A stretch of 64,000 bases of DNA, from the NCBI RefSeq assembly GCF_009766065.1, contig NZ_LMUE01000017.1:157662-221661 (forward strand). The letters run 5' to 3'. This stretch comes from Dyella sp. S184. GTDB taxonomy: Bacteria > Pseudomonadota > Gammaproteobacteria > Xanthomonadales > Rhodanobacteraceae. A program made the translations under genes and the position numbers. Every line of letters begins with the position of its first letter. Position 1 is the stretch's first letter. The notes under the pieces were generated by a model. That model worked only from the letters and a program-made list of their open reading frames with translations. It had not been told where the DNA came from and made no database searches. Below, piece by piece: positions 56,656-60,000 of this stretch.

Positions 56656-56874
56656 TCAGCGCTTGCTGATGAAACCGCCAACGGCCAGCAGGCCACCGAC
56701 CACGATGCCGGCGATGCCGATCCATTGCGGCAGGCCCTTGTCATGGGTGGCGGTGATCTTGGCCGAGCCGACCTGGAACAGCGTATCGGTGGTCTGGTAA
56801 CTGGCGTGGCCGGAGACGATCCAGATGCCGGCTACCAGCAAGATGATGCCGACGATGATCAGTCCTGCGCGCAT
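56656..56874 (-). CDS. DUF3185 family small membrane protein
   Basis: A 72-residue protein with two helices, MRAGLIIVGIILLVAGIWIV and GIAGIVVGGLLAVGGF, joined by a loop with TTDTLFQVGSAKIT. This fits the DUF3185 family (small two-helix membrane proteins, unknown function). ATG 56874 is the natural start. It lies between uvrD and the polA-side small RNA, with a terminator of its own. Confidence 0.88.
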   Translation of the reverse strand: MRAGLIIVGIILLVAGIWIVSGHASYQTTDTLFQVGSAKITATHDKGLPQWIGIAGIVVGGLLAVGGFISKR

Positions 56875-56966
56875 GGATGTTTCCCCTCAATGGATGTGGC
56901 TGGAGTATGCCGGGTGCCGGTGTGCACAAAAAGTACAGGCTGGAGAGTTCGGGCCCGATTGCAGGC

Positions 56967-57088
56967 AAAAAAAGGCCCCGAAGGTTAGGGGGAACCTTCG
57001 GGGCCGGGCGGACGCGAAGACCCAGGGGAGAGGTTCTCGTCCGTGGCGGCTCAGGGAGGTGAGCCAGCCGTGGATGCCGTTGCGTGCA
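56967..57088 (-). ncRNA. candidate sX13-like small RNA with C-rich loops, downstream of polA
   Basis: Read on the minus strand, about 120 nt end in a perfect terminator: GGCCCCGAAGGTT/AACCTTCGGGGCC with loop CCCCCT, followed by seven T residues (56967-57005). Upstream of it are two more stem-loops: CGGACG/CGTCCG (57008-57043) closing an inner loop with CTCCCC, and GGCTCA/TGAGCC with loop CCTCCC (57048-57065). A TAAGTT -10 at 57100-57095 gives a start near 57088; the -35 is weak. Three C-rich loops, this size and a location next to polA are features of the Xanthomonas small RNA sX13, which pairs with G-rich mRNA sites. The rest of the 357-bp gap (57089-57231) is A/T-richer and holds the promoter region. 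Confidence 0.65.
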
Positions 57089-57231
57089 TCCGATAACTTA
57101 GAGCGAGGTTTGCCGGGAAAGTTGCAGTGGAAGCGCAGAAAAATTTATCGCAGGTTCATATGATGAAACATTAACGCGCAAGCCATTGTTATACGGGAAG
57201 GTCTGCATGTGCGGCATACGAGACTATTGCT

Positions 57232-60000
57232 TCAGTGCGCCTCGTCCCAGTTCGCGCCCACCCCTACATCGACCAGCAACGGCACCGCCAGTTCCGCCGC
57301 GCCCGACATCCGCTCAATCACCGCGGCGCGCACCTCATCAACTGCATCGGCGCGCACTTCGAACACCAGTTCATCGTGTACCTGCATCAGCATGTGCACG
57401 TCGTCGCGCCCGTTGATCCATCCGGCCACGGTGATCATTGCGCGCTTGATGATGTCGGCGGCGCTGCCCTGCATCGGCGCGTTCACCGCGGCGCGCTCGG
57501 CGCCCTGGCGCAGGCCCTGATTGCGCGAGGTGAGGTTTTCCAGATACAGGCGGCGACCGAAGATCGTCTCGACGTAGCCGTCGCGGTGCGCCTGCTCGCG
57601 GGTCGCATCCATGAACGCGCGTACGCCGGGATAGCGCGAGAAATAACGCGCCATGTAGTCACTGGCCTCGCCACGGTCGACACCAAGCTGGCGCGCCAGC
57701 CCGAACGCACTCATGCCGTACATCAGGCCGAAGTTGATCGCTTTGGCAGCGCGGCGCTGGTTGGTGGTGATGTCTTCTGGCGGCACGCCGAACACTTCTG
57801 CCGCGGTGGCGCGATGCACGTCGCCGCCTTCATGGAACGCGCGCAGCAGGCCTTCGTCGCCGGACAGGTGCGCCATGATGCGCAGCTCGATCTGCGAATA
57901 GTCTGCTGCCATCACCTTCCAGCCCGGCGGCGCGATGAACGCCTGGCGGATGCGCCGGCCTTCCTCGGTGCGCACCGGGATGTTCTGCAGGTTCGGATCG
58001 GACGAGGAGATCCGTCCGGTCGCCACCGCACCCTGGTGATAGCTGGTATGCACACGACCGGTGCGCGGATTGACGATGCCGGACAGCTTGTCGGTATAGG
58101 TAGAGCGCAGCTTGGCCAGTCCGCGGTAATCGAGGATCAGCCGTGGCAATTCGTGCGTATCGGCAATTGCTTCCAGCGCTTCCTCGTTGGTGGACGGCTG
58201 CCCGGTCGGTGTTTTCAGCTTGGCCTGCAGGCCAAGTTCGTCGAAGAGGATGGCCTGCAGTTGTTTCGGCGAGTCGAGATTGAATTCACGTCCGGCCAGA
58301 GCGTAGGACTGCCGTTGCAGTTCCAGCATGCGCTTGCCGAGCTGCTGGCTTTGCCGGCGCAGTTCGTCACCGTCGATCAGCACGCCGCGACGTTCCATCG
58401 CCGCAAGCACCGGCACCAGTGGAATCTCGATGTCTTCGTACACCTTGCGCAGCGACGGGACGCTCTCGAGCTTGGGCCACAGCGCATGGTGAAGGCGCAG
58501 GGTGACGTCGGCGTCCTCGGCGGCATAGCGGCAGGCGGTGTCCAGATCCACCTGCGAGAACGAAATCTGCTTCGCCCCCTTGCCGGCGACCTGTTCGTAC
58601 TTGATCGTCTCGTAGCCGAGGTACAGCCGCGCCAGCGAATCCATGTCGTGGCGCGTCGCGGTGGCGTTCCACACGTAGGACTCGAGCATCGAATCGTGCT
58701 TCAGCCCCTGCACGGCGACGCCGTAGTGCGACAGGATGTTGATGTCGTACTTCGCATGCTGGCCGAGCTTCGGTTTGCCGGCATCCTCGAACACAGGTTT
58801 CAGTGCAGCCAGTACCGCGTCGCGATCGAGTTGCTTCGGTGCGCCGGGATAGTCGTGGCCCAGCGGGATATAGCAGGCATGGCCAGGTTCGATGGAGAGA
58901 CTGAGGCCGACGATGTCCGCACGCATAGCATCGATGCTGGTGGTTTCGGTATCGAACGCGATCAGCTCGGCGTCGCGCAATTTTCCCAGCCATGCGTCGA
59001 GTTGTGGCTGGGTGGTAACCAGTTCGTAGCTGCCGGGCGCTGACAAGGCGGCATCCGGTGCGGCGCGGTTGTTATCCAGCAAAGGTGTCGGGGCAGCCGT
59101 TATCCCGGATAGTTCGCTCTGCGCGCTGCTTTCCAAGGGTGAGGATGCCGAGGAGCTTGCGGCGTCGAGATCCTTCAGCGCCGCCTTGAATTCATAGCGC
59201 GCGTACAGCTCGCGCAACTGCGCGGTATCAGCATCGCGCTGAGCCAGATCGGTGGGACAGAGTTCCAGCGCCACGTCGGTCTTGATCGTCACCAGTTCGC
59301 GCGACAGCGGGAGTTGCGGTAGCGCGGCGCGCAGGCTCTCGCCGATCTTTCCCCCGATCTTGTCGGCGTTCGCGACCACACCATCCAGCGTGGTGTATTC
59401 GGCCAGCCATTTGGCGGCGGTCTTCGGGCCGCACTTGGGTACGCCCGGGACGTTGTCGACGGTGTCGCCGGTGAGTGCGAGGAAGTCGATGATCTGTTCC
59501 GGTCGCACACCGAATTTCTCCATGACCCCGGCGCTGTCCATCACCGTGTTGCTCATGGTGTTGACCAGGGTGATGTGCGGATTCACCAGTTGCGCCAGGT
59601 CCTTGTCGCCGGTGGAGATCTCGACCTCGATACCGAGCGCCTGTGCCTGCACGGCCAGCGTGCCGATCACGTCGTCGGCCTCGACGCCGGGCACGCGCAG
59701 AATCGGAAACCCCAGCGCGCCGACGATCGCCAGCATTGGCTCGACCTGCGAGCGCAGGTCTTCCGGCATCGGCGGCCGGTTCGCCTTGTACTGGTCGTAC
59801 AGCGCATCGCGAAAAGTGGGGCCGGGGGCATCGCTGACGAACGCCAGATAGTCCGGCTTTGCCTTCAGCGTGGCGCGCAGCATGTTGACCACCCCGAACA
59901 GCGCACCGGTCGGTTCGCCGTGGGCATTGGTCAGTGGCGGCAACGCGTGGAAGGCGCGATACAGATAGGAGGAGCCGTCGATCAGGATTAATTTGGCCAT
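57232..60000 (-). CDS. polA: DNA polymerase I
   Basis: Replication and repair polymerase of 922 residues in the classic three-part form: an N-terminal 5'-3' exonuclease (about 1-290; KLILIDGSSYLYRAFHALPP and the helix-hairpin-helix part), a 3'-5' exonuclease with the metal site FDTETTSID (about 348-356), and the polymerase domain with motif A DYSQIELRIMAHLSGD, motif B RRAAKAINFGLMYG and motif C QVHDELVFEV. ATG 60000 (MAKLILIDGSSYLYR) is the family start; five upstream codons are ignored. It is followed by the small-RNA locus and divergent from the DUF2782 gene. Confidence 0.98.
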   Translation of the reverse strand: MAKLILIDGSSYLYRAFHALPPLTNAHGEPTGALFGVVNMLRATLKAKPDYLAFVSDAPGPTFRDALYDQYKANRPPMPEDLRSQVEPMLAIVGALGFPILRVPGVEADDVIGTLAVQAQALGIEVEISTGDKDLAQLVNPHITLVNTMSNTVMDSAGVMEKFGVRPEQIIDFLALTGDTVDNVPGVPKCGPKTAAKWLAEYTTLDGVVANADKIGGKIGESLRAALPQLPLSRELVTIKTDVALELCPTDLAQRDADTAQLRELYARYEFKAALKDLDAASSSASSPLESSAQSELSGITAAPTPLLDNNRAAPDAALSAPGSYELVTTQPQLDAWLGKLRDAELIAFDTETTSIDAMRADIVGLSLSIEPGHACYIPLGHDYPGAPKQLDRDAVLAALKPVFEDAGKPKLGQHAKYDINILSHYGVAVQGLKHDSMLESYVWNATATRHDMDSLARLYLGYETIKYEQVAGKGAKQISFSQVDLDTACRYAAEDADVTLRLHHALWPKLESVPSLRKVYEDIEIPLVPVLAAMERRGVLIDGDELRRQSQQLGKRMLELQRQSYALAGREFNLDSPKQLQAILFDELGLQAKLKTPTGQPSTNEEALEAIADTHELPRLILDYRGLAKLRSTYTDKLSGIVNPRTGRVHTSYHQGAVATGRISSSDPNLQNIPVRTEEGRRIRQAFIAPPGWKVMAADYSQIELRIMAHLSGDEGLLRAFHEGGDVHRATAAEVFGVPPEDITTNQRRAAKAINFGLMYGMSAFGLARQLGVDRGEASDYMARYFSRYPGVRAFMDATREQAHRDGYVETIFGRRLYLENLTSRNQGLRQGAERAAVNAPMQGSAADIIKRAMITVAGWINGRDDVHMLMQVHDELVFEVRADAVDEVRAAVIERMSGAAELAVPLLVDVGVGANWDEAH

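Follow-up and report, generated by a model that had tools for sequence, protein, structure and literature searches.

The window, by which we mean the whole stretch of 64,000 nucleotides analysed here and on which all locus coordinates are counted, carries a series of hairpins with C-rich loops on the minus strand, downstream of polA. Does this locus encode a small RNA of its own, to which family would such an RNA belong, and how would its expression be controlled? The first-pass annotation had named it an sX13 homologue in a Rhodanobacter-like genome. sX13 was reportedly described in a 2012 paper by dRNA-seq. In the later study, which is also the source of the other statements on Xanthomonas below, it appears as an RNA of 115 nt whose gene begins 175 bp after polA; it has three loops rich in C and acts on G-rich mRNA motifs (PMC3771888).

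The C-rich locus downstream of polA

The covariance-model search that had been proposed as a check returned the sX13 family. The Rfam model (RF02232) matches 56969-57081 over its full length (positions 1-115) with 44.4 bits and an E-value of 9.5e-6 (14 kb searched with 4227 families), though this falls short of the gathering score, 50 bits, which is a database cut and not a biological trait. It is the single significant match to this model in the genome. Because the score lies under the curators' cut-off, membership in the family rests on a chain of relatives. Among genomes of the same family the Rfam model matches 141 of 147 at E <= 0.001, in all 26 genera, with 51 above the cut-off; one of 14 control genomes (Thermus composti) was matched, below the cut-off. 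A second covariance model, R1, was made from 28 aligned same-family sequences, the window among them, and finds the window at 56969-57092 with 125.5 bits, the score of a training sequence. At 80 named loci obtained by polA similarity alone, R1 gives one match each in 76, of which 16 are training sequences. For three of the four negative loci (L093, L099, L100, L108) the whole genomes give a strong match elsewhere (110-118 bits), and the genome of the fourth has a weak match only (33.7 bits, E 1.7e-4). R1 recovers five of the six family genomes missed by the Rfam model and has no match in the genome of G114, an 87%-complete assembly.

The surroundings point in the same direction. The predicted RNA start lies 140 nt 3' of the polA stop codon on the same strand, judging from the ORF positions, and the 322 C-terminal residues of PolA are 97% identical to those of Rhodanobacter sp. 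C03, in agreement with the Rhodanobacter-like genome proposed earlier. Pairwise identity, averaged over the window and 25 named close relatives, reaches 85% in the RNA, compared with 57% in the adjoining 45 nt on its upstream side, 63% in the preceding 60 nt and 54% in the 120 nt downstream. We conclude, with a probability of about 0.9, that the locus encodes an sX13-family small RNA, the Rhodanobacter orthologue of sX13. Its features are collected in Table 1.

Table 1 Features of the polA-sRNA locus, with positions counted on the window
Feature	Position	Strand	Basis
sX13-family sRNA, predicted primary transcript of about 125 nt	56967..57091	-	R1 and Rfam RF02232 matches; start predicted from promoter and hairpin
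5' hairpin, GGATGC-A-CG-CAA-CG-GCATCC	57072..57091	-	Covariation; only the 3' part lies inside the Rfam match
Hairpin 1, loop CCTCCC at 57059-57054	57045..57069	-	Fold
Hairpin 2, best-fold loop TCCCCT at 57029-57024, inside TCTCCCCT	57009..57043	-	Fold
Hairpin 3, intrinsic terminator, loop CCCCCT at 56992-56987, seven Ts	56967..57005	-	Terminator scan; covariation
ECF/sigmaE-type -35 element CAACTT	57119..57124	-	AACTT conserved upstream of the model start
ECF/sigmaE-type -10 element TCTAA, 16 nt from the -35	57098..57102	-	Spacing as at own rpoE; pattern test
polA, DNA polymerase I, 927 aa	57232..60015	-	ORF; identity of the PolA C-terminus
Small ORF, 72 aa, downstream of the RNA; RBS GAGGGG at 56888-56883	56656..56874	-	Read from sequence

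On the minus strand, positions 57091-56967 form three hairpins with C-rich loops, the last being the terminator, preceded by a 5' hairpin. The stretch 57110-56960 folds with -67.8 kcal/mol, against -46.1 +/- 4.0 for shuffled sequences (z -5.43), and none of 200 shuffles folds as well. All three stem-loops of the first-pass annotation are thus present on the strand that it named, together with a fourth, the 5' hairpin at 57091-57072, which it had overlooked; two of its loops, CCTCCC and CCCCCT, are recovered as described, whereas the best fold replaces CTCCCC in the second by TCCCCT. The elements ACCTCCCTG of hairpin 1 and CTCCCCTGG of hairpin 2 are invariant across 22 aligned sequences. The perfect 13-bp terminator stem followed by seven Ts was also found by the terminator scan (57005-56974, loop of 6), which on its own is weak, shuffled versions of the stretch averaging 0.5 terminator-like sites. 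It is plausible that this terminator also ends the polA transcript.

The same architecture recurs in the relatives, as the first-pass annotation had expected for the loops and stems: in each of 77 molecules folded singly (the window and 76 named loci), at least three hairpins carry CCC in the loop, three in 73 molecules and four in 4. Hairpin 2 was omitted from R1, because its stem moves by one column between sub-groups, and has its support from these individual folds. Four loci (L080:5054-5215, L084:5066-5226, L088:5066-5226 and L132:5066-5226) are longer and have an extra C-rich hairpin, as though hairpin 2 had been duplicated; L080 and L088 are the longer variants whose folds were computed. 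A 12-codon ORF inside the RNA (ATG at 57089) was rejected as a coding role, since it is not conserved: several relatives have ACG, GTG or GCG where the window has the ATG.

Arrangement and copy number vary. At L135:5124-5243 (Dokdonella fugitiva A3) the RNA, which is inverted with respect to polA, has retained AAACTTT and TCTAT elements on its upstream side; because promoter-like sequence accompanies it in this orientation, it has the look of a separate unit. A second, divergent C-rich RNA occurs in some Rhodanobacteraceae (L197:3001-3135, L156:541-652, and weak second matches such as G039:C1:1093175-1093297); it has no polA in the fetched stretch, L197 has TTGAACT and TCTAA upstream, and it is possibly a paralogue. 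Multiple copies are seen at L153/L158 (G056) and L151/L157 (G103), the two copies lying about 400 nt and 3.7 kb apart, respectively.

The 5' hairpin and the promoter region

The 5' hairpin was counted separately in each of the two main families, because one bulged A puts it out of register in a joint alignment. In the 28 aligned sequences of the window's family, 99.6% of the cells in the stem are paired, against 28-51% for slid partners. Both sides of the stem have changed at three pairs (A-U to G-C in 7 sequences, U-A to C-G in 8, G-C to A-U in 1), and G-U wobble occurs at four pairs. For the percentage paired, the count of double-changed cells and the covariation score, the observed value is matched by none of 500 shuffles; the other two of the five measures are not clearly above shuffles, the count of double-changed pairs being reached by 19 of 500 and that of further pair types by 498 of 500. 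An equivalent stem with a CAA triloop, in 14 distinct forms with compensatory and wobble changes, is found in 22 loci of family f2, taken as Xanthomonadaceae because Rfam sX13 scores reach 136 bits there. Single mismatches in this family are C-A in L042 and L043 and G-G beside the loop in L048, L055 and L057, and L049 pairs fully when read by eye.

The Rfam sX13 model begins at AACG, within the loop of this hairpin. Given this start and a covarying 5' hairpin, the transcript is probably about 125 nt long. Since a -10-like box lies a few nucleotides 5' of the hairpin, the simplest reading is a primary transcript that begins at the hairpin, which would probably head the RNA as a conserved element. 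This suggests that the 115-nt RNA, presumed to be the basis of the Rfam model start, is a product of processing in the hairpin loop, and that the Rfam model is truncated at its 5' end.

Upstream of the RNA, 105 of 129 regions have AACTT 30-35 nt 5' of the model start; for the window and the 76 named loci the count is 76 of 77. We used a loose joint pattern, [GC]AACT-N16-20-NTC[TA]NA, which was composed after the sequences had been seen, and a strict one, GAACT-N16-20-GTC[TA]NA; loci were counted, each tandem copy for itself, and one locus (genome G481) belongs to both groups of class loci. Rhodanobacteraceae loci show the loose pattern in 35 of 77 cases (mean of shuffles 0.58), and loci from the order's remaining families in 15 of 37 (0.10); at the level of the class it is present at 10 of the 22 loci that R1 found (0.02) and at 14 of the 29 that came from the anti-hemB or ErsA models (0.15). 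The corresponding counts for the strict pattern are 0, 11, 9 and 10. The window site, CAACTT-N16-TCTAA, agrees with the loose pattern and not with the strict GAACT...GTC form. The TAAGTT that the first-pass annotation took for the -10 (57100-57095) overlaps the likelier ECF-type -10 TCTAA (57102-57098), and a consensus scan of 56900-57260 found no sigma-70 promoter.

The sigmaE promoter consensus consists of GGAACTT or GAACTT and a TCTGA-type box at fixed spacing. The genome has an RpoE-family gene (318.9 bits, cut-off 236) among 11 matches to the RpoE model, and GAACTT-N16-TCTGA stands upstream of its own rpoE, with the same spacing as at the small RNA; we take this to be a sigmaE-type site, as in E. 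coli. Comparable elements accompany distant relatives: GAACTT-N17-TCATA at L224, a clear ErsA locus, and a GGTCTGA box at each of the four tandem copies of L204, after GGAACT at three of them. In family f2 the loose pattern is found in 1 of 22 loci and CACGAAC and TATA-like boxes stand instead; loci L032-L050 carry an CTTCACGA box and a TATA-like sequence ahead of the RNA, in which they differ from the window's family. Such boxes would suit the constitutive expression reported for sX13 in Xanthomonas (PMC3771888). For the window's RNA, control by sigmaE (RpoE) is a reasonably probable reading, and, judging from the promoter region, the RNA may be switched on by envelope stress.

That these hairpins are the structured 3' UTR of polA, with the terminator but no separate RNA, is very improbable. 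The RNA does lie on the strand of polA, 140 nt downstream, where its terminator could end that transcript; however, the hairpins 5' of the terminator are conserved and covarying, the promoter-like elements are conserved as well, the RNA of L135 is inverted with its own promoter-like sequence, and in eight other loci of the 76 it lies 540-2919 nt from polA. Hardly better are the chances that the 5' inverted repeat acts at the DNA level, as an operator at the start site. In favour of this, it sits just 3' of the -10, and the Rfam model start falls inside it. Yet the stem has compensatory changes and G-U wobble at four pairs in the 28 sequences, and changes of this kind recur in the 22 f2 loci; wobble leaves a stem in RNA intact, whereas in DNA it destroys the palindrome, and therefore counts against an operator.

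The question of the sigma factor is less one-sided. The RNA might be an sX13 homologue that is transcribed in the ordinary housekeeping manner or served by another ECF factor, the AACTT...TCTNA likeness then having no bearing on RpoE. We regard this as a doubtful reading that nevertheless carries real weight: it is made likelier by the absence of the strict pattern from 77 of 77 Rhodanobacteraceae loci and of the loose one from 21 of 22 f2 loci, and it is in line with the 42 of 77 Rhodanobacteraceae loci that miss the loose pattern, with the constitutive expression in Xanthomonas (PMC3771888) and with the 11 RpoE-model matches, by which other ECF factors exist in this genome. On the other hand, the scan gave no sigma-70 site at the locus, the loose pattern is far above shuffles in four groups with AACTT in place in 76 of 77 loci, the spacing is identical to that upstream of the genome's own rpoE, and the L204 copies have their four GGTCTGA boxes, three after GGAACT. 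SigmaE control remains the preferred reading.

Candidate targets and proposed mode of action

The best candidate target from sequence comparison is hfq. The hfq leader of this genome reads AAGGGGAGAACAAGAAATG and contains AGGGGAGA, an 8-nt complement of loop 2 (UCUCCCCU). GGGG occurs within 22 nt 5' of the hfq start at 25 of 31 loci (this genome's and 30 returned from 59 genomes searched), against a background of 349 in 9300 random 22-nt windows (3.8%). The duplex of loop 2 with hfq, which includes a second, distant stretch, has an energy of -17.0 kcal/mol, with a median of -11.3 and a best 1% of -20.7 for shuffled sequences. The complementarity is thus supportive only, because the duplex energy is unexceptional and the RBS is G-rich anyway. 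In Xanthomonas, hfq is a known sX13 target and loop 2 is needed to repress an Hfq::GFP fusion, though regulation was not restored when mutations in loop and target were combined (PMC3771888). The 72-aa ORF directly 3' of the RNA is a possible neighbouring target, its 4G motif fitting the published target rule.

In the mechanism that we propose, a separate small RNA of about 125 nt would be transcribed from an ECF/sigmaE-type promoter, with the conserved 5' hairpin probably heading the primary transcript, and would stop at its own intrinsic terminator, while processing within the 5' hairpin loop might yield a 115-nt form. The C-rich loops of the three hairpins would pair, by analogy with sX13, with G-rich (4G) RBS or enhancer sites, and this pairing would lower the translation of target mRNAs, with hfq as the best candidate.

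Relatives in the class and comparison with known systems

At the level of the order, R1 matches 87 of 151 genomes, and 46 of 64 genera are represented among the matches. Of the 38 matched genomes outside the two main families, 25 have polA in the fetched flanks, on the same strand in 23 and on the opposite one in 2 (L177, L187), and the other 13 are without polA in the stretch. At the level of the class, R1 matches 21 of 274 genomes, 18 of them outside the order, with scores of 31-56 bits outside the order. polA stands beside the match in 14 of these 18 (on the opposite strand in G515) and engB within 1.5 kb in three more; in the remaining genome, G485, the match starts 54 nt from the contig end, and no engB is found downstream. 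Because R1 holds no position information, this neighbourhood in 17 of 18 genomes is independent support. Phylum-wide, 9 of 299 genomes are matched, one of them (G653) outside the class.

Two further Rfam models lead to similar places. The anti-hemB model matches 123 of 274 class genomes, 13 above the cut-off, as well as 3 of 14 control genomes; the ErsA model matches 10 of 274, 1 above the cut-off. We examined 50 distinct class genomes, namely the 18 of R1, 9 further ones of ErsA and 23 further ones from the best 30 anti-hemB loci of the 123 matched genomes. polA is found in 32 of them, engB only in 10, a neighbouring cytochrome gene only in 2, and none of these in the flanks of 6. Within the 23 from the best 30 anti-hemB loci, polA or engB adjoins in 16. 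Locus L204 (G445) has four tandem copies between polA and engB, which in one scan match sX13 with 48.3 bits, anti-hemB with up to 41.8 and ErsA with 37.1, all below the cut-offs, and L214, beside polA, reaches 58.7 bits with the anti-hemB model, above its cut-off of 49.5. R1 has no match in the clear ErsA genome G437. The alphaproteobacterial ar14 model (RF02344) matches L206:1517-1620 with 40.5 bits and L204:1502-1604 with 38.0 bits, both below its cut-off.

Since polA, a C-rich small RNA and often engB recur together across the class, one family may include sX13, anti-hemB and ErsA as its branches. While the locus itself is a further member of the known sX13 family, this proposed superfamily is the new part. 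With odds barely on its side, we propose one ancient small RNA family of the polA-engB interval, belonging to the class Gammaproteobacteria in its wide sense. Its members would have a hairpin at the 5' end, hairpin loops rich in C and a GC-rich terminator, and the ancestral promoter would have been served by an RpoE-type envelope-stress sigma factor. The Xanthomonadaceae copy would have shifted to constitutive use, and the 115-nt sX13 would be cut in the 5' hairpin loop. An independent origin of the C-rich small RNAs beside polA in other orders is unlikely by comparison. It would agree with the modest R1 scores outside the order (31-56 bits), with the bridging L204 matches being all below cut-off and the anti-hemB model matching 3 of 14 controls, and with the sX13 study, which itself compares C-rich loops in distant species (PMC3771888). 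Nevertheless, R1 is blind to position and 17 of its 18 class matches adjoin polA or engB, the promoter pattern is common to the groups, one locus (L204) matches three Rfam families, and L214 passes the anti-hemB cut-off. The 5' hairpin is likewise enriched: measured against simple shuffles, the 5' segment equals or beats 95% of them in folding at 15 of 37 and 11 of 20 loci, whereas upstream controls reach this mark at 1 and 3.

The sX13 study describes the RNA as confined to Xanthomonadaceae, and the question is raised there whether polA loci elsewhere encode small RNAs (PMC3771888). Our comparisons answer yes: polA-locus small RNAs are found throughout the order and, within the class, in many families, pointing to a common promoter type. 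Among the papers listed in our literature searches, none was seen that links sX13 to ErsA, anti-hemB or sigmaE. If the common family is real, three small RNAs that have been studied separately, namely a virulence regulator of a plant pathogen, an RNA of Burkholderia and an envelope-stress RNA of Pseudomonas, have a single origin, and what is learnt about any of them would provide hypotheses for the other two.

Among known systems, the window's RNA is closest to sX13, as the first-pass annotation had proposed: it shares the place after polA on the same strand, the three C-loop hairpins, the terminator and the size, as well as the CAA-loop 5' inverted repeat that is also present in the 22 f2 loci taken as Xanthomonadaceae. 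An abundant transcript of about 115 nt and Hfq-independent action also belong to the criteria for sX13. The loops of Xanthomonas sX13 have 4, 4 and 5 Cs, whereas CCTCCC in loop 1 of the window is a broken run and loops 2 and 3 have runs of 4 and 5. Further differences are the score of 44.4, under 50, a predicted start about 10 nt further upstream, and a promoter region with AACTT...TCTAA in place of the CACGAAC and TATA-like boxes of f2.

Anti-hemB (RF02837), named from Burkholderia, resembles the window's RNA in a hairpin loop CUCCUCCC closed by CCGCU/GAGCGG and in the GC-rich terminator, but its model has 81 positions and the window scores 23.5 bits (E 0.077), below 49.5. ErsA of Pseudomonas (Pseudomon-1, RF01719) has 132 nt (PMC5819304), lies between polA and engB under sigma22-dependent envelope-stress control (PMC5819304, PMC8575079) and is Hfq-dependent for several targets (PMC8575079). 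It shares the polA-engB place and, in L224, the GAACTT element, and its envelope-stress sigma control would agree with that predicted for the window's RNA; however, its model has no match at E <= 0.001 in the window's genome, and the two RNAs are linked only through intermediates such as L204, R1 being without a match in G437. Spot 42 of E. coli also lies beside polA and, according to the sX13 study, has no sequence similarity to sX13 (PMC3771888); by its description it differs in being Hfq-dependent and acting in carbon metabolism.
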